Positions 5,096-24,970 of a stretch of DNA of 32,782 bases are shown piece by piece. Source of the DNA: Marilutibacter aestuarii (lineage in GTDB: Bacteria > Pseudomonadota > Gammaproteobacteria > Xanthomonadales > Xanthomonadaceae). How positions within the stretch are numbered: position 1 is the stretch's first letter; the number at the start of each line of letters is the position of its first letter. Below the pieces are notes generated by a model that had not been told where the DNA came from, did no database searches, and saw only the letters and a program-made list of their open reading frames with translations. The DNA lies in contig NZ_VICE01000120.1 of the NCBI RefSeq assembly GCF_006546775.1, positions 1 to 32,782 on the forward strand, read 5' to 3'. The translations under genes were made by a program, and so were the position numbers.

Positions 5096-6123
5096 GCCGA
5101 CAGCCTCGTGCGCAACATCCCGAGCAGGCCGCTGGTCTCGCTGAAGAACAGGGCCCGCGACAGCGTCCCGTCGGGCGCGCGGTAGCGGGTGTCGTGGACG
5201 TTGTGCCGCAGCAGCAGGTAATGGCTGGTACCCGGCCGGTTCACGCCCTCGATCGACGTGGCGGCGGTGGCATAGCCCGACCGCTTGACCAGGTCGACGT
5301 CGCGCTCGCCAAAGTCCTGCGACGTGCCGTTGGGATAGGCGAAGTGGCGCGGGCGGCGACCGAGCTCACGCTCGATGTCGCGCGTGCACTCCTCGATCTC
5401 CATGCGCGCCGTCGCATCGTCCACCCGGCTCAACAACACATGGCTGCATGTGTGCCCGCCGATGTCGATGCCCTTCTCGTCGAGCGTGCGCACGTCGCTC
5501 CAGTCCATCATGTCGCGCCTGGCGTCGACCGGCTCACTCGGCCGCAACTGCTGGAGAAGCTCGCCCAGCCGGGCTTCGAACTCGTCGTGCGACAGCTGCT
5601 TGAGCCACGGCGGCAGCAACTGCAGGGCGCGTTCGCGTTCGGCGGGGCGCGACAGGTCGAAGCGCCCCAGGCCATGCGAACCAAGGTCGAGCAGGTCCCG
5701 GCTGCGGGTCTCGACCGCACGCGACAGGCGGTAGGCCCAGATCGGCTCGCCGCCGATGTGCCCGGTGGCGACGTAGACCGTGGCCGGGGTCCCCAGCACC
5801 TCGCCGTCAAGCAGGCGGAGGTTGTCGAGGTACCCGTCGTCAAGGGTGATGGCGTAGTTCACCACCCGGCGGGGGCCTCGCTGCAGTCGGGCCAGGCCCT
5901 CGTCGAGGCTGACGAGCACGTCGTCCTGCCGAAGCCACTGGACGAGCCGCGACAGGGTGTCGATCCGCGTGCTGAGCGGGTAATAGTCGTGCTCGTCGCG
6001 CAGGCGGTGGAGCATCAGCACCACGAGGCCCCGGCCGCTCGCAAGGCGGTAGAACGCGTCCAGTCCCGAATAGTGGAATGCGAGTGCGCACAGGTAGCGG
6101 ATCCATCCATTGACGCGCGTCAT
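5092..6123 (-). CDS. Polysaccharide deacetylase (NodB domain) with long insertion
   Basis: This 343-residue CE4 protein has motif 1 AITLDDGYLDN with D95 and D96. Motif 2 is GGHTCSH with the metal ligands H224 and H228, and motif 3 is RPRHFAYPNG near residue 260. About 125 residues separate motifs 1 and 2, far more than in the neighbouring deacetylase. This is a charged, mostly helical insertion around residues 130-210. The N-terminus (1-40) is mildly hydrophobic and may be peripheral to the membrane. The start ATG 6123 overlaps the polymerase stop as ATGA; no upstream start is needed. Together with the next gene it gives the locus two distinct deacetylases, which suggests two acetylated sites or two stages of processing. 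Substrate unknown. Confidence 0.87.
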   Translation of the reverse strand: MTRVNGWIRYLCALAFHYSGLDAFYRLASGRGLVVLMLHRLRDEHDYYPLSTRIDTLSRLVQWLRQDDVLVSLDEGLARLQRGPRRVVNYAITLDDGYLDNLRLLDGEVLGTPATVYVATGHIGGEPIWAYRLSRAVETRSRDLLDLGSHGLGRFDLSRPAERERALQLLPPWLKQLSHDEFEARLGELLQQLRPSEPVDARRDMMDWSDVRTLDEKGIDIGGHTCSHVLLSRVDDATARMEIEECTRDIERELGRRPRHFAYPNGTSQDFGERDVDLVKRSGYATAATSIEGVNRPGTSHYLLLRHNVHDTRYRAPDGTLSRALFFSETSGLLGMLRTRLSA

Positions 6124-7472
6124 TGCGGGTTTTCCTCCCTGGGCAGTTCGCGGGCCTTGAGCATGAGGGCGGTGAACGCCCAGAAGTAGGCGATCACGGG
6201 GTAGTGGGTGAAGCGGTCGCCGAACAGGTTGCCGCAGACCAGCCCCATCCACGCCCCGACGATGCCAAGTGCCAGCGCGTAGTGGAGCGTGCCATTGCGG
6301 GCCAGTGCCAGCTCCCGCCGCGCGGTCAGTACGATAGACAGCAGCACGCCCAGCAGCAGCACCGCACCGATCACGCCGCCCTCGCTCAGGGTGCGGATGT
6401 ACAGGTTGTGCGTGTCCTTTCCGTAGGGATTGATCTCGCGGTGCTGGAAGCTGTGGATACCCGTGCCGGTGAGCGGGTGGGCCTTGAAGTTCTCCCAGGC
6501 GATGTTCCAGTAGACGAAGCGCATCTCCGTGCTCTCGTCGCGGTCGGTCTCCTCCACCGATGTGCTGTCGAAGCGCTCGATGACCGACGAGGGCAGCACC
6601 GCGGGCAGTGTGGCGGCCGCCAGCAGGAGCGGCAGCATCATCTTCCAGCGGCCGCGCCATGCCAGGATCACGGTCACCAGGCCCAGGATCAGGGCGACGT
6701 AGGCGGTACGCGAATAGGCATACAGCACGCCCAGGACCATGCAGGCGATGCCGATGCCCAGCGCGATCTTCCAGATGCGCGAAAGGCGCGCGGAAAGGAA
6801 GAAGGCGAACAGCACGGTGGCCACGGTCACGCAGAACGCGGCGAACTCGTTGGCGCCCAGCAGTCCGAAAGTCGCGGGAATGCGCAGGTCGTCCGAGTAG
6901 TGCCAGCTGGCCACGCTGAGGTGCTGCACCCAGGCGACTTTCGCGATGTAGGGCAGCGGCAGCATCATCGCGATGACCACCCGCCGCGCGGTGGTCCAGT
7001 CGCGTACGCTCATCTGCACGAGGAACAGCACCGAGAAGCCGATCAGATGGTCCTTGACGATGGCGAAATGGTTCGCGCTCTCGCTCACGTAGGTGGTCGA
7101 GATGAACATCGACACGATCGTGTAGGCCATGTAGGCGAAGACCCAGCGATTGACCGATGCGCCGCGGGCGAGGTGGCCCCCGGCGACCAGCGCACCGGCG
7201 AACGAGGCCAGGAAGCCGACGTTCAGGAAGTTCAGGCCGGCGCCGAGGTTCGGGATGTAGCCGAACTGGATGTTCTGGAGGGGCAGCAGGACCAGGAACA
7301 GGTAGAGCGGCCAGTTCTGGCGATGCGTGCGCCGCGGCATCGCGCGGGGCGCCGCGGTGTCGCGCGTGGCCGCGGGCGCCGGCATGCCCTGGGTGAGCAT
7401 CGCCCGTGCCGCCAGCGGAAAGCGCTCCGCCGGTGTCCTGGGCGAAGGAGGATCAGGCCGCTTGAACGCCAT
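6120..7472 (-). CDS. O-antigen ligase / Wzy-like polymerase (Wzy_C family)
   Basis: This 450-residue integral membrane protein has a proline-rich cytoplasmic N-terminus (about 1-50) followed by about ten or eleven hydrophobic helices. The large periplasmic loop after residue 300 contains RFVYWNIAWENF, GTGIHSF and the DTHNLYIRTLSEGG motif, in which the conserved His/Asn are characteristic of the Wzy_C (PF04932) ligase/polymerase family. In an EPS locus it most likely joins undecaprenyl-linked repeat units in the periplasm; lipid A ligation is less likely because Wza, Wzz and deacetylase genes surround it. I chose ATG 7472 for its GGGAGGGT ribosome site 6-8 bases upstream. The gene overlaps the end of the preceding GT4 gene by 20 bases. 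The extra upstream reading to 7691 lacks homologous-looking sequence. Confidence 0.87.
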   Translation of the reverse strand: MAFKRPDPPSPRTPAERFPLAARAMLTQGMPAPAATRDTAAPRAMPRRTHRQNWPLYLFLVLLPLQNIQFGYIPNLGAGLNFLNVGFLASFAGALVAGGHLARGASVNRWVFAYMAYTIVSMFISTTYVSESANHFAIVKDHLIGFSVLFLVQMSVRDWTTARRVVIAMMLPLPYIAKVAWVQHLSVASWHYSDDLRIPATFGLLGANEFAAFCVTVATVLFAFFLSARLSRIWKIALGIGIACMVLGVLYAYSRTAYVALILGLVTVILAWRGRWKMMLPLLLAAATLPAVLPSSVIERFDSTSVEETDRDESTEMRFVYWNIAWENFKAHPLTGTGIHSFQHREINPYGKDTHNLYIRTLSEGGVIGAVLLLGVLLSIVLTARRELALARNGTLHYALALGIVGAWMGLVCGNLFGDRFTHYPVIAYFWAFTALMLKARELPREENPQ

Positions 7473-8613
7473 GCGTCCACCCTCCCAGCGATTCGTACAT
7501 GGTGCGGTAGCGAACCGCCATCGCGCCCGGGGAGTGTCCGCTGCGGACGCGGGCGCGGGCACGCGCGTCAAACGCGCGTCCGGCGTCCAGTCGTGCGTGC
7601 ATCGCGGCGGCCAGGGCGTCCCGGTCGCCCGCTGGCACGAGGCGGCCCTGCTCCGTGCCCGACAGCAGCCGTGGCACGTCGCCGACCGCACTCGCGATGA
7701 CGGGCAGCCCGTGGGCCATTGCTTCGAGGACCGTCAGCGGCATGCCCTCGCTGAGCGAAGGCAGCACCAGGCAGTCGATACACGGATACACCGAAGGCAT
7801 GTCGTCGCGGACCCCGGCGAAGTGGACCCGTCGTGCGATGCCGAGCGCACTGCACCGGGCGCGCAGTGCGTCGCCGAGCGGACCGTCGCCGACCATCAGC
7901 AACTGGCAGTCCTCGCGAGCGTCCGCCACGGTGGCGAAGGCTTCGAGCAACATGGCCAGGTTCTTCTCGGGGGAGAACCGCGCCACGGCCGCGAACACGA
8001 AGTCCGCCTCGCCGAGGCCCAGCGATGCGCGCGATACCGGCGGGGCCGTCTCTCCCGGCGCGTGCAGGGGAATCCCGTTGTCGACCAGGTGGATCCGCGT
8101 GCGCGGCACGCCGGCATCCGCGAGCAGGCCGACCTGGCGTTCGGAGACCACCGCCAGCGCGTCGAAGCGGCGCAACAGGCCCAGCTCGAGGCGGTTGTAG
8201 AGCCGCAGCGCGCGGGTCGCGTCGACATGCCCGTGCAGGGTCGCCACCAGGCGGACGGGCAATCGCATGCTCGCCAGCCAGGCGTATGCCGCGCTCTTGT
8301 AGTCGTGCACGTGGACGATGGTGGCGCCCTGGCGGCGCAGCGCGGCCCGGAGCGCGCGAAGGGTCCCCGGGTCGAGGCGGCCCCGGCAGGCCAGCAGTTC
8401 GGCCTGCTGTCCCTCGGCGATCGCCGCCTCGTGCAGTTCCTGCACCGGCATCCGTGGATTGCCGATGCTCAGCAGGCGGCTGTCGACGCCCTCGCTCGCC
8501 AGCGCCCGGTTGAGCGTCAACACCATGCGATCGGCGCCATAGAGGCCGGCGCTCGAGCGGAGCTGCGCGACCCTGGGCGAAGGCGACGCGACGGGCGAGG
8601 CTGCCTGCATCAT
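7453..8613 (-). CDS. Glycosyltransferase family 4
   Basis: This 386-residue GT-B protein has an N-terminal domain that includes the HVHDYKSAAYAWLAS strand-loop and a LVATLHGH acceptor-side histidine. The C-terminal domain shows FAAVARFSPEKNLAMLLEAF and LLMVGDGPLGDAL. It also has LPSLSEGMPLTVLEAMAHGL, in which both Glu of the E-x7-E donor-binding motif are present. It probably transfers a hexose or uronic residue during assembly of the EPS repeat on the cytoplasmic face. The start region reads ATGATG; ATG 8613 gives the 4-base ATGA overlap with the stop of the upstream GT4 gene and has a GGGGAGG site just ahead. ATG 8610 would differ by one residue. Confidence 0.88.
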   Translation of the reverse strand: MMQAASPVASPSPRVAQLRSSAGLYGADRMVLTLNRALASEGVDSRLLSIGNPRMPVQELHEAAIAEGQQAELLACRGRLDPGTLRALRAALRRQGATIVHVHDYKSAAYAWLASMRLPVRLVATLHGHVDATRALRLYNRLELGLLRRFDALAVVSERQVGLLADAGVPRTRIHLVDNGIPLHAPGETAPPVSRASLGLGEADFVFAAVARFSPEKNLAMLLEAFATVADAREDCQLLMVGDGPLGDALRARCSALGIARRVHFAGVRDDMPSVYPCIDCLVLPSLSEGMPLTVLEAMAHGLPVIASAVGDVPRLLSGTEQGRLVPAGDRDALAAAMHARLDAGRAFDARARARVRSGHSPGAMAVRYRTMYESLGGWTHGVQAA

Positions 8614-9821
8614 GCCCTCCCCACCAGGCGCCGGTAGAGGCGATCGTAGGCATCGACCATCCCGGCGAGCGAGAACTCCGACTCGATCCGGCGGCGGCCG
8701 GCGTTGCCCAGGCTGGCCCGAAGCAGCGGCTCCTGCACCAGCCGGCGCATGGCGTCGCCCATGGCCGCGGCGTCGCCGCTGGGCACGAGGAAGCCCGTCT
8801 CGCCGTCGCGTACCAGTTGCAGGTTGCCGCCTACCGCCGTGGCGACCACGGGCAAGCCGCAGGCCATCGCCTCGAGGATCGCGTTGGACATGCCTTCGCT
8901 GCGGGAGGCGAGGAGGGCCGCGTCCAACGCCGGAAGGATCTGGTGGATGTCGGAGCGGTTGCCGAGGAAGCGCACGGCATCCCCCAGGCCCAGGGCCTGC
9001 GCCTGGGCCGACAACTCGCCGGCAAGAGCACCGGCACCGACCAGCAACAACCTTGCCCGTGGGTCGCACGCGTGCGCGCTGGCAAAGGCATCGATCAGCA
9101 TGGCATGGTTCTTGACCGGATACAGGCTCGCGACGCAGCCGAACGCCACTTCGTCGCGCGCCAGGCCCAGTGCCTGCCTCAGCGCCTGGCGCCGTGGCAC
9201 GGGTACCGGAGCGAAACGATCCGTGTCGACGCCATTGGCGATCCACAGCATCCGCGATGTGGGCAGCCCCTCGTGCTCGGCCAGCGCGGCGAGGATCTCG
9301 TGTGCCGGGGCGATCACGGAATGGTAGCGGTGGTTGACCAGCCGGAAGACGTGGCGCAGGCGCCGGCTTTTCAGGAACCCCATGTCCCGCCGGTTCGACA
9401 GGCGCACGGCCATCTCGCGTGGCCCGAGCAACAGGTTGATGAGGTCGGATTTCTCGTGCTGGGACTGGATCACGTCGAACGCCTCGAGCCGCAGGCGCGC
9501 GCGCAGGTCGCGGATGGCGCGCAGGCCGCGTAGTCCGTAGATCGGCCCGATCGGATGGTTGAGCACGCGCAGCGCGGTACCCGCTTCGGTCACGTGCGTG
9601 GTCTCGCCCGGGGCGTTGTCGGCGCCGAGCTGGACCACGGTGATCGCGTAGCGCTCCGGCGGAAGCCGTCCCACCAGGTTGCGCAGGAAGCGCTCGCTGC
9701 CCCCGGTGTTGGTCAGCGCGGTATCGGTCAGCAGCAGCAGGCGGATGGGCGGCTGGGGCTGGCTGGCGATGACGGCCTCAGCGGCGATAGACGAGGCTGA
9801 CAGTGACGGCATTGTCGTCAT
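8610..9821 (-). CDS. Glycosyltransferase family 4
   Basis: This 403-residue GT-B enzyme starts after a short polar tail with the strand IRLLLLTDTALTNTGGSERF, where the GG loop lies next to the acceptor site. Further on are a WIANGVDTDRF interdomain segment, GCVASLYPVKNHAMLIDAF, LLVGAGALAGEL, and RSEGMSNAILEAMACGLPVV with a complete E-x7-E pair. It is paired with the next GT4 gene by an ATGA overlap. Its own start (ATG 9821, alternatively ATG 9812) lies inside the end of the beta-barrel gene, an overlap of 44 bases; an AAGGGT site sits about 7 bases upstream of 9821. The donor sugar cannot be told from sequence. Confidence 0.88.
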   Translation of the reverse strand: MTTMPSLSASSIAAEAVIASQPQPPIRLLLLTDTALTNTGGSERFLRNLVGRLPPERYAITVVQLGADNAPGETTHVTEAGTALRVLNHPIGPIYGLRGLRAIRDLRARLRLEAFDVIQSQHEKSDLINLLLGPREMAVRLSNRRDMGFLKSRRLRHVFRLVNHRYHSVIAPAHEILAALAEHEGLPTSRMLWIANGVDTDRFAPVPVPRRQALRQALGLARDEVAFGCVASLYPVKNHAMLIDAFASAHACDPRARLLLVGAGALAGELSAQAQALGLGDAVRFLGNRSDIHQILPALDAALLASRSEGMSNAILEAMACGLPVVATAVGGNLQLVRDGETGFLVPSGDAAAMGDAMRRLVQEPLLRASLGNAGRRRIESEFSLAGMVDAYDRLYRRLVGRA

Positions 9822-11097
9822 AGCTGAACCCTTGCACCGAGCTGTCGCGGGATCGTCGCCTCAGGTCGAGCCGGGCGCTCCAGTGGCGGGTGAAGCGCTT
9901 GGCCAGGCCGACACCGAAGTTGGTGTCCTTGTCCAGCCTGGAGGTGACGGTGAAGTCGCGGCGCTGGTGGTCGACGCTGGCGACCAGGTCGAGCAGGGGA
10001 TTGATGCGGAAGGTATAGGCGAAGGCCGCGCCGCTGTTGGTGTTGTCGAAATCGTCCTCCTCGACGTATTCCGAACGCTCGTACCAGGCCGACGCGTCCA
10101 CGCCGTGGCGGGGGCCCGAATGGCTGAACCCGAGGTCGAGCCGCCGCTGTTCGTAGGGGTCTGAGGACACGATGACCCCGCTGACGTCGATGTCGGTGCC
10201 GATCGGGACGTCCGGGTCGACCGGCGTCGACGACAGGCTCTGCGCGGTGTCGGAGAACTGGTAGGACGCCTGTGCGTTGATCGAGGTCTCGGGCGAGAAG
10301 CGCCAACCCAGGCTCGCCCTGCCCAGTGGGGAGGAGTAGCTGTCGCCGTCGACGATGTCGAGCGTCGAGTAGCCCAGGTCCACGCTGAAATCCAGTTGGC
10401 GCAGGTTGCGCTGGAAGTTCACGTAGCCGTCGAGGCGATCGTAGTCGCTGGCGACGCCGGCCTGGTCGAAGCGGATCCGGTTGGACTCGACGTTCAGCGA
10501 GGTGCGGGTGGTGGGGCCGAGTTCGTGGAGCACGCGCGCAGCGGCGTTGACGCGGTCGGCATCGAACTCTGAGGTTTCCTCCGCTTCGCTTCGGCTGTAG
10601 CGCGCATCGAACTGCGCGCGGGTGCGGTCCGACAGGTTGAGGTAGAGAGACGGGCCGCCGATCAGGATGTTGACCTGTTGGGCGTTGCTGGGGGTCACCG
10701 GCGAGAGGATGTCGACCGGCTGTTGGCTCAGGTAGTCCTCGACGACGAAGTCCAGCCGTTCCGGCAGCATGCGCCAGCGCATGTGCCCGCTGAATTCGCC
10801 GCGCACCTCGTTGTCGAAGGTATCGCCCGTGTAGTAGAGGTATCGGGCGTTGCCGCGCCCGACCAGGTCGACGCTGCGGCCCTCGTGGGTGAGGGTGAAG
10901 TCGATGCCCGGCGCGATCGTGGTCTCGCTGATTTCCTCGGTTTCGCTGAGGATGATGTTGGAATTGTGGATGACGCCGGCGCTGATCTCGTAGTCGAGTT
11001 CGACGGCGTGCGCGCCCGGCGCCACCGCCAGGCCGAGGGCGAGGGCCGTCGAAAGCGTGGTGTGCTGGATGCGGTTCCGGTGCTTGGCTGGCTTCAT
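9778..11097 (-). CDS. Outer-membrane beta-barrel protein of the EPS locus (putative EPS secretion porin)
   Basis: This 439-residue protein has a signal peptide (about 1-31, basic start, hydrophobic core, cleavage after AHA). It is followed by alternating amphipathic strands rich in aromatic and charged residues, such as RGNARYLYYTGD, LDFSVDLGYST and TSINAQASYQFSD. The pattern matches the XrtA/PEP-CTERM-associated outer-membrane proteins of the TIGR03016/EpsL type. About 16-18 strands would fit the length. The C-terminus ends in VSLVYRR, without the usual final Phe/Trp. I chose ATG 11097 because GAGGAA lies 6-7 bases upstream and the signal peptide then starts properly; a GTG at 11115 is in frame but less suitable. 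It stands between the kinase-like gene and the glycosyltransferases and may form the channel for EPS. Confidence 0.82.
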   Translation of the reverse strand: MKPAKHRNRIQHTTLSTALALGLAVAPGAHAVELDYEISAGVIHNSNIILSETEEISETTIAPGIDFTLTHEGRSVDLVGRGNARYLYYTGDTFDNEVRGEFSGHMRWRMLPERLDFVVEDYLSQQPVDILSPVTPSNAQQVNILIGGPSLYLNLSDRTRAQFDARYSRSEAEETSEFDADRVNAAARVLHELGPTTRTSLNVESNRIRFDQAGVASDYDRLDGYVNFQRNLRQLDFSVDLGYSTLDIVDGDSYSSPLGRASLGWRFSPETSINAQASYQFSDTAQSLSSTPVDPDVPIGTDIDVSGVIVSSDPYEQRRLDLGFSHSGPRHGVDASAWYERSEYVEEDDFDNTNSGAAFAYTFRINPLLDLVASVDHQRRDFTVTSRLDKDTNFGVGLAKRFTRHWSARLDLRRRSRDSSVQGFSYDDNAVTVSLVYRR

Positions 11098-11107
11098 CCG
11101 GATTTCC

Positions 11108-11854
11108 TCAGACACCCTGGTTGAAGACGACGCCGGCGAACTTCTCGGGATCGAAGTTGGCGGCCGCCTGGCTGATCGCCTCGGGGGAATCCTGTCCGTA
11201 GCCGGCGACCAGGATCACCACGTCGGCCAGGTCGGCCAGGATCCTTGCCTCCGGTGCGCCGCGCACCGGCGGGCTGTCCAGGAACATGTAGCAGTCCGGG
11301 TGCCTGCTGCGGATCGAGTCCAGCAGCAGGCGCATGCGGACCGAGCTGAAGTACTCCGCGCCCGCTTCGCGTTGCGCGCCGGCCGGGATCAGGTTGAGGC
11401 CGGGCATGCCGGTCTCGTAGAGGTAGTCGCCCAGGTCCGCCTCGGGGTCCTCGAGGTAGTCGGTGAGGCCACCATTGGTGCAGTCGATCTGCAGGGTCGT
11501 GTGCTGGGAGGGGTGGCGCAGGTCGCAGTCGACCAGCAGCGCGCTCTTGGTCTCGTCGAAGGCCATGGCGGCGGCGAGGTTGCGAGCCACGAAGCTGCCC
11601 CCGCAACCGGCGCTCACGGGCGCGACCAGGGCGACGAAGTTGTTGGTCGTCATCGCAAGCAGGCGCGTGCGGATCTCGCGGAACGCATCGACCTCGGGAC
11701 GCGCCACGGACGAGCGCCGGATCAGGGCGCGCTCTTCCATCTGCGCCGGCGTCAGCGCCTGGCTGGCGTGGCGCAGCGACAGGGACCGCCCCGAAGCACC
11801 GGCGAGCTTGGCCGGCGGGTCTTCACGATGGGTTCTGGACATGACGGTGCTCAT
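11108..11854 (-). CDS. CpsD/Wzc-like BY-kinase relative with degenerate Walker A (probable pseudokinase)
   Basis: This 248-residue protein has the fold markers of bacterial tyrosine kinases. They are a helix with FREIRTRL (residues 58-65), a Walker A' LLVDCDLRHP (106-115), and a Walker B YMFLDSPP (189-196). The P-loop position reads PVSAGCGGSF (79-88). The invariant Lys and Thr of G-x-GK(S/T)T are replaced by G86 and F88, so normal ATP binding is unlikely. There is no Tyr cluster at the C-terminus, which ends FNQGV. It is cytosolic by composition, encoded directly after the Wzz protein (ATGA overlap at 11854), and probably pairs with it as in CapAB systems. It may act as a structural partner or regulator of chain length. 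Start ATG 11854; ATG 11842 is a weaker option. Confidence 0.83.
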   Translation of the reverse strand: MSTVMSRTHREDPPAKLAGASGRSLSLRHASQALTPAQMEERALIRRSSVARPEVDAFREIRTRLLAMTTNNFVALVAPVSAGCGGSFVARNLAAAMAFDETKSALLVDCDLRHPSQHTTLQIDCTNGGLTDYLEDPEADLGDYLYETGMPGLNLIPAGAQREAGAEYFSSVRMRLLLDSIRSRHPDCYMFLDSPPVRGAPEARILADLADVVILVAGYGQDSPEAISQAAANFDPEKFAGVVFNQGV

Positions 11855-13419
11855 GAGCTGGCCAGCCTGACGAGGAGGACCAGGCCATAGACGACCGGGA
11901 CCATCAGGAAGAGGAGGGCGCTGAGGACCACCTTGCGGCGGTAGGCGCTGCGACGGGCGCTGGTGTAGTAGTGGGGGACGGCGCCGAGCACGGGAAGGCC
12001 CGCCTGGCGTTCGATCTGCTGGGGTGAGCGGATGCGCGGATCGAACTTCACCAGCACCAGCAGGAGCAGGAACGGCGCGGCGAGCGCCATGCCCAGGCCG
12101 CCACCGGCGACGTGCATGAGGCGCAGGCCATTGCTGCGCAGTGGGACGCGCGCCGGCTCCTGGATCCGGAAGCTCAGGCCGCGCTGTTCCGCGTCCAGGC
12201 TCATGGAGACGCGCGCGTTCTCGCGGCGCTTGAGCAGGTCCTGGTAGAGGTCGCGGTTGACTTCGTAGTCGCGCGTCAGCTCGGCGAGCGAGCTTTCCGA
12301 GGCGGCGATGCGGCCGCTGCGGCGAAGCTCTTCGGCGAGCAGGCCCTCGGCGGTTGAGATGCGGCTGGACATGGCCGCGGCCTGCCGGCGGACCTGCGCA
12401 AGCTTGCTCTTGAGCTCGCCGTAGAGCGGGTTGAGGTTGGCCGAGCCGTTGATGGCGCCGACGCTCGCCGCGCGGTTCTGCTGCAGCGAGTCTTCCTGCC
12501 GCAGCTGGGCCTGGAGGTCGTCGAGCTGGTGCTGGATGCGGACCACGTCCGGATGCTGGCGTGTATAGGTCAGCAGCAGGCGGTCCTGCTCGTCCTCCAG
12601 CTCGGCGAGGCGCGCGACGAGCTGGCCGGTACGGGTCTGCAGCACGGTGACTTCGTTCTCGCCGGACAGCTGGGAAGTCAGCGCCGCTTCCTGCGAGCGC
12701 AGGTCGTGCAGGTCCATGCGCGAGCTCTCGACCATGCGGCGAAGCTCGCCGATACGGGAGTTGACGTCGGTCTCGATGCCGGGGCGCGCGTCGGGGTTCG
12801 ACTTGCGGTAGGCCTCGAGCTTGGCCTCGGCGTCGGTCAGCTTGGCGTGGTACTGGCGCACCTGGGAGTCGATGAAGTCGTAGGCATCGCGACTCTCCTT
12901 CTCCTTGGTGGCCAGGCTCTCGGAGATCACCAGGTCGGCGAAGCGGCTGGCCACTTCGTAGGCGCGGCGCGGATTGGAGTCGGTATAGGAGATCTGGATC
13001 AGGTTCTCGCGCGGGTTGGCGATCTGCGTACGCTTGGTGATCTCCTCGATGATCTTTTCCTGCTCGAGGGGGCTGGGGTCGTCGGCCATCCAACCGCCGG
13101 TCTCGAGGATCTCGCCCATCACCTTCTGGCTGAAGGCGACCTGCCGCGTGATGCTGGCGCGGTTGGTCACCCCAGTCGCGACGGCGCGTCCTTCCATCAG
13201 CGGCCGGATGATGTTGGAGTCCTCGACCAGGATCGTCGAGGAGGAGGTGTACTTCTTCGGCAGGACCAGCCCCGCGACCAGCGCCAGCAGGGCGATGGCC
13301 GCGAAGATGGCGACGAGGAGCAGCTGCCTGCGCTTGACCTCCTCGATCGCGATCGGGAGCAGTGTCGTCAGTGAGGCCGGTTGCTCCTGTCCCGACCACT
13401 CCAGGGCTGGGTTGGTCAC
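11851..13419 (-). CDS. Wzz-type polysaccharide chain-length determinant (XrtA/EPS-locus type)
   Basis: This 522-residue inner-membrane protein has a cytoplasmic N-terminus of about 30 residues and TM1 around 33-53 (LLLVAIFAAIALLALVAG). A Wzz domain with KKYTSSSTILVED follows, then a long periplasmic coiled coil (about 170-410) full of heptads with Glu, Leu, Arg and Gln. A second hydrophobic segment lies around 425-450, followed by a cytoplasmic loop and a final helix near 495-518. The layout fits the PEP-CTERM-locus chain-length family (TIGR03007-like). It controls polymer length and bridges the polymerase to the OPX protein. The start is GTG 13419, which overlaps the OPX stop as GTGA. No BY-kinase domain is fused; the kinase-like gene follows separately. 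Confidence 0.9.
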   Translation of the reverse strand: MTNPALEWSGQEQPASLTTLLPIAIEEVKRRQLLLVAIFAAIALLALVAGLVLPKKYTSSSTILVEDSNIIRPLMEGRAVATGVTNRASITRQVAFSQKVMGEILETGGWMADDPSPLEQEKIIEEITKRTQIANPRENLIQISYTDSNPRRAYEVASRFADLVISESLATKEKESRDAYDFIDSQVRQYHAKLTDAEAKLEAYRKSNPDARPGIETDVNSRIGELRRMVESSRMDLHDLRSQEAALTSQLSGENEVTVLQTRTGQLVARLAELEDEQDRLLLTYTRQHPDVVRIQHQLDDLQAQLRQEDSLQQNRAASVGAINGSANLNPLYGELKSKLAQVRRQAAAMSSRISTAEGLLAEELRRSGRIAASESSLAELTRDYEVNRDLYQDLLKRRENARVSMSLDAEQRGLSFRIQEPARVPLRSNGLRLMHVAGGGLGMALAAPFLLLLVLVKFDPRIRSPQQIERQAGLPVLGAVPHYYTSARRSAYRRKVVLSALLFLMVPVVYGLVLLVRLASS

Positions 13420-14060
13420 AGTGCGCGCTCGGGTACGGTGATGACGTCGCCCGGTGCGACCTTGTAGTTGGTCGACAGGTCGCCGTCATCGAGGATGTTG
13501 TCGAGGTCCACCGCGTAGTTGCGGGTACCGCTCTCGTCGCTGCGATACAGCTCCGAGCGCGCCGGCGCGGCGAACTCGGTCAGCCCGCCCGCGGCCAGCA
13601 CGGCGTCGAGCACGGTCATGCCCTGGCGGTAGGGGATCGAGATGGGCTGGCGCACCGCGCCGGTGACGCGCACGCGCGAGAGGTACTCATGGCTGCGCAG
13701 GTCGGTCAGGATCACGGCGACCTGGGGGTCGCGCACGTAGACGGCCAGCTTCTCGCCGATGTCGGCGGCGACCTCGCTCGGGGTCAGGCCGCCGGCGCGG
13801 ACGTCGCCCACCAGGGGCACCGAGATCATGCCGTCCGGACGCACCGGCACGGTGATGCCCAGGTCCGGGTTCCGCCACACGGTGACCTGGACGATGTCGT
13901 CCACGCCGATCTTGTAGGCATCGACCGCGGCGGGTGCTTCGATCGCCGGCGGCGGGCCCGAGGCCTGGCTGCCGCCGCTGGCGCAGCCGGCCAGGGCCAG
14001 GGAGGAGGCCAGGCAGGCGGAGAGGGCCATCCTGGAGAAGAACGATGATGTGCGATGCAT
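13416..14060 (-). CDS. Polysaccharide export (Wza/OPX) lipoprotein, short form
   Basis: This 214-residue lipoprotein has a signal peptide ending in the lipobox LALAGC (Cys about 26). A Poly_export domain begins with AYKIGVDDIVQVTVW and contains VRPDGMISVPLVGDVRAGG. One SLBB-like beta-grasp repeat follows (VTGAVRQPISIPYRQGMTV). The protein stops at VAPGDVITVPERAL, just where longer Wza proteins continue into further SLBB domains and the amphipathic helix that crosses the outer membrane. It therefore lacks an obvious pore segment. It resembles the TIGR03027 EPS-locus export family. ATG 14060 has a GAGGGGA site 8 bases upstream; the longer reading from 14093 would spoil the signal peptide. Confidence 0.9.
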   Translation of the reverse strand: MHRTSSFFSRMALSACLASSLALAGCASGGSQASGPPPAIEAPAAVDAYKIGVDDIVQVTVWRNPDLGITVPVRPDGMISVPLVGDVRAGGLTPSEVAADIGEKLAVYVRDPQVAVILTDLRSHEYLSRVRVTGAVRQPISIPYRQGMTVLDAVLAAGGLTEFAAPARSELYRSDESGTRNYAVDLDNILDDGDLSTNYKVAPGDVITVPERAL

Positions 14061-14100
14061 GGTGGAAATCCCCTCGGTGTCAGCCAAGAACAACGGAGAT

Positions 14101-24894: not shown

Positions 24895-24970
24895 TGGTAC
24901 TCCCTAGGGGATTCGAACCCCTGTTCCAACCGTGAGAGGGTCGTGTCCTAGGCCTCTAGACGAAGGGAGC
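24895..24970 (-). tRNA. tRNA-Glu (anticodon CTC)
   Basis: The 76-base RNA has a 7-bp acceptor stem (GCTCCCT with AGGGAGT, first pair G-T), a D arm with GTCTAGAGGCCTAGGAC, and an anticodon stem CGACC/GGTTG with the loop CTCTCAC. The anticodon CTC reads GAG (Glu). The T arm is AGGGG-TTCGAAT-CCCCT, and CCA is encoded. The D arm and T arm match bacterial tRNA-Glu closely. Confidence 0.96.

Follow-up and report, generated by a model that had tools for sequence, protein, structure and literature searches.

The gene at positions 11108 to 11854 of a 32,782-nucleotide stretch of Marilutibacter aestuarii DNA, the whole of which is called the window here, is likely to encode a stand-alone BY pseudokinase. 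Judged from its sequence, a predicted structure and analogy with described systems, this protein would be the cytoplasmic partner in a polysaccharide co-polymerase made of two parts and would serve as a phosphorylation-free scaffold for its Wzz partner in an exosortase-free exopolysaccharide locus of the Wzx/Wzy type. BY-kinases are usually described as controlling polysaccharide length and export through a cycle of Tyr phosphorylation and dephosphorylation. A clade that has neither the catalytic Lys nor a Tyr tail, that keeps most of the nucleotide pocket and the arginines of the ring, and that comes with a Wzz of its own may therefore be regarded as a natural test of which parts such a machine needs. 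The protein and its motifs are located in the window as follows.

11108..11854, minus strand: BY-kinase-like protein without the Walker A Lys and without a Tyr tail (translation, TIGR03018, AlphaFold/Foldseek)
11669..11689, minus strand: helix motif DAFREIR (residues 56-62), which presumably corresponds to the EX2RX2R octamer-interface motif named in PMC3795738 (alignment)
11591..11617, minus strand: degenerate P-loop VSAGCGGSF, residues 80-88 (VSAGCGGSFVARNLA), with G86 at the Lys position and S87 kept (alignment)
11510..11539, minus strand: Walker A' LLVDCDLRHP, residues 106-115, D109 kept (alignment)
11267..11284, minus strand: Walker B FLDSPP, residues 191-196, D193 kept (alignment)
11120..11134, minus strand: C-terminal strand GVVFN, N245 kept, followed by three residues and the stop (alignment)

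The open reading frame, for which the initial annotation named no strand, begins with ATG and encodes 248 AA residues, the stop codon being included in the coordinates. Its best NCBIfam model is TIGR03018, the XrtA-associated tyrosine autokinase, with a score of 159.9 bits that lies under the cut-off of 230.65, and no Pfam match to the 248-residue protein was observed at E<=0.001. Among named relatives, Lysobacter spongiae was the closest found, with 96% identity in this protein. Walker A' and Walker B, reported as intact in the initial annotation, were both found in the translation with their Asp residues (D109 and D193), as would be expected of an active BY-kinase. The P-loop was read there as AGCGGSF with Gly in place of Lys and Phe in place of Thr, of which the former holds and the latter is a one-residue misalignment. 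In a profile alignment with 3la6, the Wzc kinase domain, whose chain is a K-to-M mutant reading SIGMTFV (VSPSIGMTFVCANLA), G86 pairs with the Lys, S87 with the Thr and F88 with the Phe that comes next, which rules out a Phe-for-Thr substitution; one invariant residue has thus been lost, not two, and the Ser is kept. The GK[ST] of an active Walker A motif is accordingly replaced by GG-S. The lack of a C-terminal Tyr cluster is likewise borne out, the protein stopping three residues past GVVFN, although this feature does not fully discriminate active BY-kinases.

Structural modelling in AlphaFold gave a model with a pLDDT of 83.6 and a pTM of 0.81, in which residues 1-24 and 26-30 score below 50. 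Its best Foldseek match is 3la6_J, the Wzc kinase octamer with ADP (E 4.4e-13, probability 1.00, TM 0.72/0.69), followed by CapA1B1 with ADP-Mg, VpsO, Etk and CapAB K55M. Its sequence relates the protein to BY-kinases, whose fold it is predicted to share, and the combination of a predicted BY-kinase fold, an incomplete set of catalytic motifs and no Tyr tail is that of a BY pseudokinase.

The initial annotation had asked whether GG-S is conserved in orthologues. The gene is present in all seven genomes of the genus, invariably with GG-S. At the family level, 120 of 395 genomes matched at E<=1e-15; five of these matches are weak, coming from Wzc-like ORFs of 754-1028 residues with GK[ST], and 102 of the 115 strongly matching genomes were read, giving Gly at the Lys position in 86, Ala in nine, Ser in seven and Lys in none. 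Wider searches matched 200 of 398 genomes in the order (E<=1e-20), 140 of 369 in the class (E<=1e-25) and 29 of 398 in the phylum (E<=1e-35), counts that include Lys-bearing kinases and of which the residue reading covers a part. With frames of fewer than 150 aligned residues dropped, 318 loci provided 313 frames that matched, representing 214 distinct sequences (177 + 37); a stricter distinct count is 176 + 37, so that one sequence is counted twice in all figures given below as 'of 177'. Among the loci read that score at least 170 bits against the clade profile, none of 176 carries Lys (128 Gly, 27 Ala, 13 Ser, 6 Thr, 1 Asn and 1 Cys), whereas below 170 bits Lys is present in 36 of 37, the exception being L293, which has Ser. 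When loci retrieved with peptide patterns (one pattern spans the P-loop) were omitted, a looser count gave 144 of 144 sequences without Lys, alongside 37 lower-scoring ones. Further loci from the phylum search comprise five without Lys (L321-L324 and L345) and 20 with GK[ST] and at least five Tyr near the end (L325-L344), and all three matches lying beyond the class (G1066, G1097 and G1195) carry Lys. Orthologues with a normal GKS/T motif, which the initial annotation had set as the observation that would refute it, were found neither in the 102 family genomes nor among the 176 homologues above 170 bits.

Because the 170-bit line was drawn from a profile of Lys-less members, the split by score is partly circular, and a tree built with the P-loop columns omitted provides an independent test. 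In this tree of 91 representatives, 61 Lys-less sequences are separated from 30 Lys-bearing ones by a single change with a support of 100/99, in an analysis with an unfixed root, a bootstrap correlation of 0.987 that falls short of full convergence and one Lys-less protein below 170 bits, L293, on a long branch. Sequence comparison therefore indicates that the catalytic Lys was lost once, in a clade spanning many families of the class, with no regain in the members read. Values of dN/dS among five genus members range from 0.065 to 0.205. As the loss is common to a whole old family, the protein most likely represents a non-kinase partner of long standing rather than the product of a broken gene, in agreement with the earlier view, here based on the open frame, the clade-wide change and the dN/dS values, that the gene is not decaying.

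Two observations concern individual members. In two family drafts, G171 (L110) and G017 (L111), the pseudokinase gene is spread over two frames, pieces of which are among the frames dropped for having fewer than 150 aligned residues, and the adjacent Wzz gene is still matched; this may reflect either decay or assembly error. The long-branch protein of L293 (6630-7502, plus strand) has an altered P-loop and an altered Walker A' in addition to lacking Lys, adjoins Wzz and OPX, and may represent an EcpK-like end point within this clade.

No Tyr follows N245 in 172 of the 177 Lys-less sequences and one does in the other five; a Tyr tail is missing from the whole Lys-less clade. Tail loss is not special to this clade. 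Seven of the 37 lower-scoring, mostly Lys-bearing, proteins also have no Tyr after the N245 column, and four Lys-bearing kinases encoded near an exosortase have 0, 0, 2 and 0 Tyr after the last strand (L281 having the two). Stand-alone Lys-bearing kinases without Tyr past the last strand were observed in L279, L280, L282, L285, L297 and L197, of which those in L279, L280 and L282 lie 14-28 kb from an exosortase; all six seem to be without the usual tail substrate. The Tyr cluster has thus been lost outside the Lys-less clade as well, and the case for a pseudokinase rests on the Lys. Model scores do not separate the two kinds either. Against the TIGR03018 cut-off of 230.65, the Lys-bearing L286 and L291 score 262-263, L280 and L281, which lie near XrtA, score 184 and 201, and the Lys-less L303 and L305 score 196 and 200. 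The product of L303 (6813-7679, plus strand), which has neither Lys nor Tyr tail, reaches 108.6 bits with TIGR01007 ('polysaccharide biosynthesis tyrosine autokinase'; cut-off 108.05), and annotation pipelines may therefore name it a kinase, an instance of how the name 'tyrosine autokinase' can be misapplied in databases.

The residues that remain under constraint were assessed by conservation rank across the 61 Lys-less representatives (222 columns). The Lys position ranks 104 of 222 in this group, compared with 2 of 193 in the Lys-bearing group, while D193 ranks 9, N245 11, D109 14, G85 19 and S87 37. The P-loop Ser has a role in Mg binding and the terminal Asn in binding the base. R59 and R62, present in 177 of 177 Lys-less sequences, rank 6 and 1 of 222, as against 30 and 46 of 193 in the Lys-bearing group. 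The second Asp of Walker A' is more variable, being D111 in this protein and Asn in 80 of 177 Lys-less sequences. Within the protein's own group (38 representatives, at least 270 bits), G85, S87, D109 and N245 are invariant (38/38) and D193 is kept in 37 of 38. The P-loop of the other 23 representatives is looser, its Ser and Gly ranking 71 and 37 of 222, and this, together with the altered protein of L293, means that binding of nucleotide cannot be a property of the whole clade. Taken together, the alignments point to constraint on the RxxR arginines and, in the protein's own group, on the P-loop Gly and Ser, the Walker A' and Walker B Asp residues and the terminal Asn, and to a Lys position that is free to vary.

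The gene lies in an exopolysaccharide locus, which also contains further glycosyltransferases and polysaccharide deacetylases besides the following features.

11851..13419, minus strand: PCP-2/Wzz chain-length protein, the constant neighbour (TIGR03007, 347 bits, over the cut-off)
11974..12042, minus strand: Wzz segment DPRIRSPQQIERQAGLPVLGAVP, located between hydrophobic stretches two and three and presumed to be where the pseudokinase docks on the cytoplasmic side (position; analogy)
13416..14093, minus strand: OPX, outer-membrane polysaccharide export protein (TIGR03027, 198 bits, over the cut-off; Poly_export, SLBB)
9778..11115, minus strand: outer-membrane beta-barrel protein, downstream (TIGR03016, 68.6 bits, below the cut-off; BBP2_2); the frame begins at GTG, but translation may really start from the ATG at 11097
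8610..9821, minus strand: glycosyltransferase of the same locus (TIGR03088, 218.7 bits, below the cut-off)
6120..7691, minus strand: candidate polymerase of the Wzy_C/O-antigen ligase family (PF04932, 85.2 bits; TIGR03097, 61.1 bits, below the cut-off)

The start codon of the pseudokinase gene overlaps the stop codon of the upstream wzz by four nucleotides (ATGA, 11851-11854). Tight coupling to wzz was pointed out in the initial annotation, and a neighbouring Wzz gene is a constant feature of the clade. Among the 110 Lys-less genes with enough upstream sequence (67 of 177 with less than 2.5 kb were dropped), a Wzz of this type lies directly upstream in 110, OPX is on the same strand in 110 and the barrel gene accompanies 109; in loci from other families of the class, Wzz and OPX were found in 20 of 20 and the barrel protein in 16 of 20. 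In the reverse direction, Wzz was detected in 112 of 370 family genomes, all 112 of which also match the pseudokinase (split in G017 and G171). The Wzz of this locus (P0003) stops after its third hydrophobic stretch with no match to a kinase domain and is thus a PCP-2 without a kinase domain of its own. Partner Wzz proteins, sampled at every eighth, mostly carry a segment resembling D.R.RS...E...GLPVLG.VP between the second and third hydrophobic stretches, and from analogy with CapA/CapB and EpsV/EcpK we infer that this segment docks the pseudokinase. The GNVR domain (PF13807) had no match in the genome, a result that is not informative. No phosphatase match was seen among the locus genes scanned; elsewhere, the genome matched one LMW-PTP clearly (contig C12) and a second weakly (C132), which says nothing about this gene. 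Elsewhere in the window, a tRNA gene (24898-24970, minus strand; Rfam RF00005, 53 bits) lies near ordinary housekeeping genes for poly(A) polymerase, ketopantoate hydroxymethyltransferase and phosphoglucose isomerase.

The gene content of the locus (OPX, Wzz and a kinase-like protein) is XrtA-like, and the Wzz and OPX genes (11851-14093) exceed the cut-offs of 'XrtA system' NCBIfam models. No exosortase (PF09721) was matched at E<=1 in the genome, which is 99.98% complete, so that here the model names carry no implication of XrtA. When 49 genomes with a Lys-less member were tested, 17 matched the exosortase family, eight of them strongly (at least 173 bits). In four of these (G744, G971, G1006 and G900), a GK[ST] kinase shares a contig with the exosortase, at a distance of about 14-28 kb, whereas the Lys-less gene is found either on a different contig or at least about 130 kb away; the two kinds occupy different loci, each with its own Wzz. 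The Lys-less gene in these genomes thus belongs to a separate locus of the same plan, and membership of an XrtA locus is ruled out there as it is here. A search of the genome for an active kinase partner, as proposed in the initial annotation, revealed no canonical BY-kinase elsewhere. The six other TIGR03018 matches at E<=1 were all assigned to other protein families (a ParA beside ParB, MinD, ApbC/Mrp, SRP54, another ParA-type protein and IF-2), which rules out such a partner among them.

The proposal that a pseudokinase sets chain length without phosphorylation, one of the readings offered from the sequence at the outset, is now the best-supported one, since neither an orthologue with Lys among the sequences read nor a partner kinase in the genome came to light. 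In this model, the pseudokinase would dock on the cytoplasmic segment of Wzz and would build or hold an octameric ring by protein contacts, and chain length and export would be set by assembly and disassembly of the ring with no Tyr phosphorylation. With less certainty, a Mg-nucleotide may still be bound as a structural or switching ligand, in which case the protein would resemble the K540M and K55M mutants described below in being unphosphorylated, octameric and able to hold ADP. Two features of canonical systems bear on this model. The Tyr tail is described as supplying much of the octamer contact in canonical kinases (PMC8285477, PMC3795738), so that a tail-less ring would need other contacts; in E. 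coli, polymer production is said to depend on phosphorylation cycling (PMC8285477), so that an unphosphorylated partner would need another way of cycling.

How much of the nucleotide pocket is still in use divides the remaining readings. The protein could be a scaffold and nothing more, as EcpK is, binding no nucleotide and acting by binding and unbinding Wzz, a reading to which we give somewhat less than an even chance. EcpK and HfsB are described as acting through direct PCP-2 contact without catalytic residues or a Tyr tail (PMC12004946), and distant clade members have decayed P-loops, one Lys-less protein also having an altered Walker A'. However, the near-complete invariance of G85, S87, D109, N245 and D193 in the protein's own group is more than would be expected of an empty pocket, and Lys mutants of Wzc and CapB are described as retaining ADP-Mg (PMC8285477, PMC3795738). 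The conserved Asp, Ser and Asn could nevertheless be kept for the fold alone. A more tentative idea is a nucleotide-gated, phosphorylation-independent switch, in which the Lys-less pocket binds Mg-ATP/ADP and binding or exchange sets the assembly of the Wzz ring. If this were true, loss of the Lys would have made a ring clamp under ligand control out of a kinase, and the purer scaffolds with decayed pockets would be later steps on outer branches. The probability left over from these two would go to a nucleotide held as a static part or to another mode.

An active enzyme with another nucleotide mode, the second reading offered at the outset, is improbable. Such an enzyme would hydrolyse or transfer from ATP without the P-loop Lys, using another basic residue such as R204 instead. 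The Walker A' and B Asp residues are retained, and position 204 is Arg in 164 of 177 Lys-less sequences (Lys in five more) compared with 5 of 37 in the other group, so that R204 looked clade-specific; yet Arg also occupies this position in the Lys-bearing L339 and L342-L344, which rules it out as a replacement. Moreover, there is no Tyr tail as a target for phosphorylation, and the Lys position drifts among Gly, Ala, Ser, Thr, Asn and Cys, as expected of a lost function. We consider it very unlikely that the protein serves as regulatory subunit to an active BY-kinase whose gene lies elsewhere, in the manner proposed for the inactive CapB1 with CapB2. The CapB1 proposal (PMC3795738) provides a precedent, and both kinds do occur in some other clade genomes, such as G744 and G971, but the virtually complete genome holds no canonical BY-kinase that we could find, and in the four genomes with XrtA and both kinds these lie in separate loci with their own Wzz. 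Finally, the two drafts with a gene over two frames are what speaks for local mutation, sequencing error or gene decay, whereas the clade-wide loss, the low dN/dS, the intact frame and the overlap with wzz leave this explanation with almost no probability.

BY pseudokinases with a stand-alone PCP-2 have already been published, and work of 2009 by Cuthbertson and colleagues lists similar pairs according to PMC12004946. We found no open-access paper on the Lys-less clade in a search of titles and abstract openings, with subscription literature mostly outside its range, and the account of Lysobacter EPS in PMC10456730 names no such gene in the portion available to us. The scaffold reading of the pseudokinase can be compared with several described proteins. 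The kinase-fold proteins CapB1 (S. aureus) and PtkB (B. subtilis) are described as inactive (PMC3795738); unlike the present protein, CapB1 was crystallised with ADP-Mg and the same source reports no lost Lys for it. The engineered mutants Wzc K540M and CapB2 K55M are closer, the present protein being a natural counterpart of their Lys loss, and both are among the nearest solved structures. Wzc K540M is described as unphosphorylated and octameric, either apo or with ADP-Mg, and tail phosphorylation as disassembling the octamer (PMC8285477, PMC11986026); CapA1B2 K55M was crystallised as an ADP-Mg octamer (PMC3795738). The difference is that the Tyr tail of the mutants holds neighbours together, whereas the natural protein has no tail. 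The XrtA-associated kinase (TIGR03018), with its TIGR03007 Wzz, shares the best NCBIfam model and the same kind of neighbourhood (OPX, Wzz and kinase), but here Lys, Tyr tail and exosortase match are all lacking and the score lies below the cut-off.

The nearest parallels by description are EcpK and HfsB. EcpK of Myxococcus xanthus is presented in PMC12004946 as a BY pseudokinase that binds the PCP-2 protein EpsV directly and is a proposed scaffold; HfsB is given as a second case, and the authors of that paper expect more. As described there, EcpK/EpsV resembles the present pair in having a stand-alone BY-kinase fold with incomplete motifs and no Tyr tail, a kinase-domain-free PCP-2 and an exopolysaccharide pathway. 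EcpK is reported to differ in lacking any Walker motif and in having an alpha-helical C-terminus, whereas the present protein keeps most of the nucleotide site, and ecpK is not directly beside epsV (MXAN_7447 and MXAN_7421) whereas this gene adjoins wzz. HfsB and HfsA of Caulobacter crescentus, from another bacterial class, are likewise described as a stand-alone pseudokinase with a kinase-domain-free PCP-2, both essential for holdfast (PMC12004946). By this analogy, the protein encoded at 11108 to 11854 fits the EcpK/HfsB mode of action.
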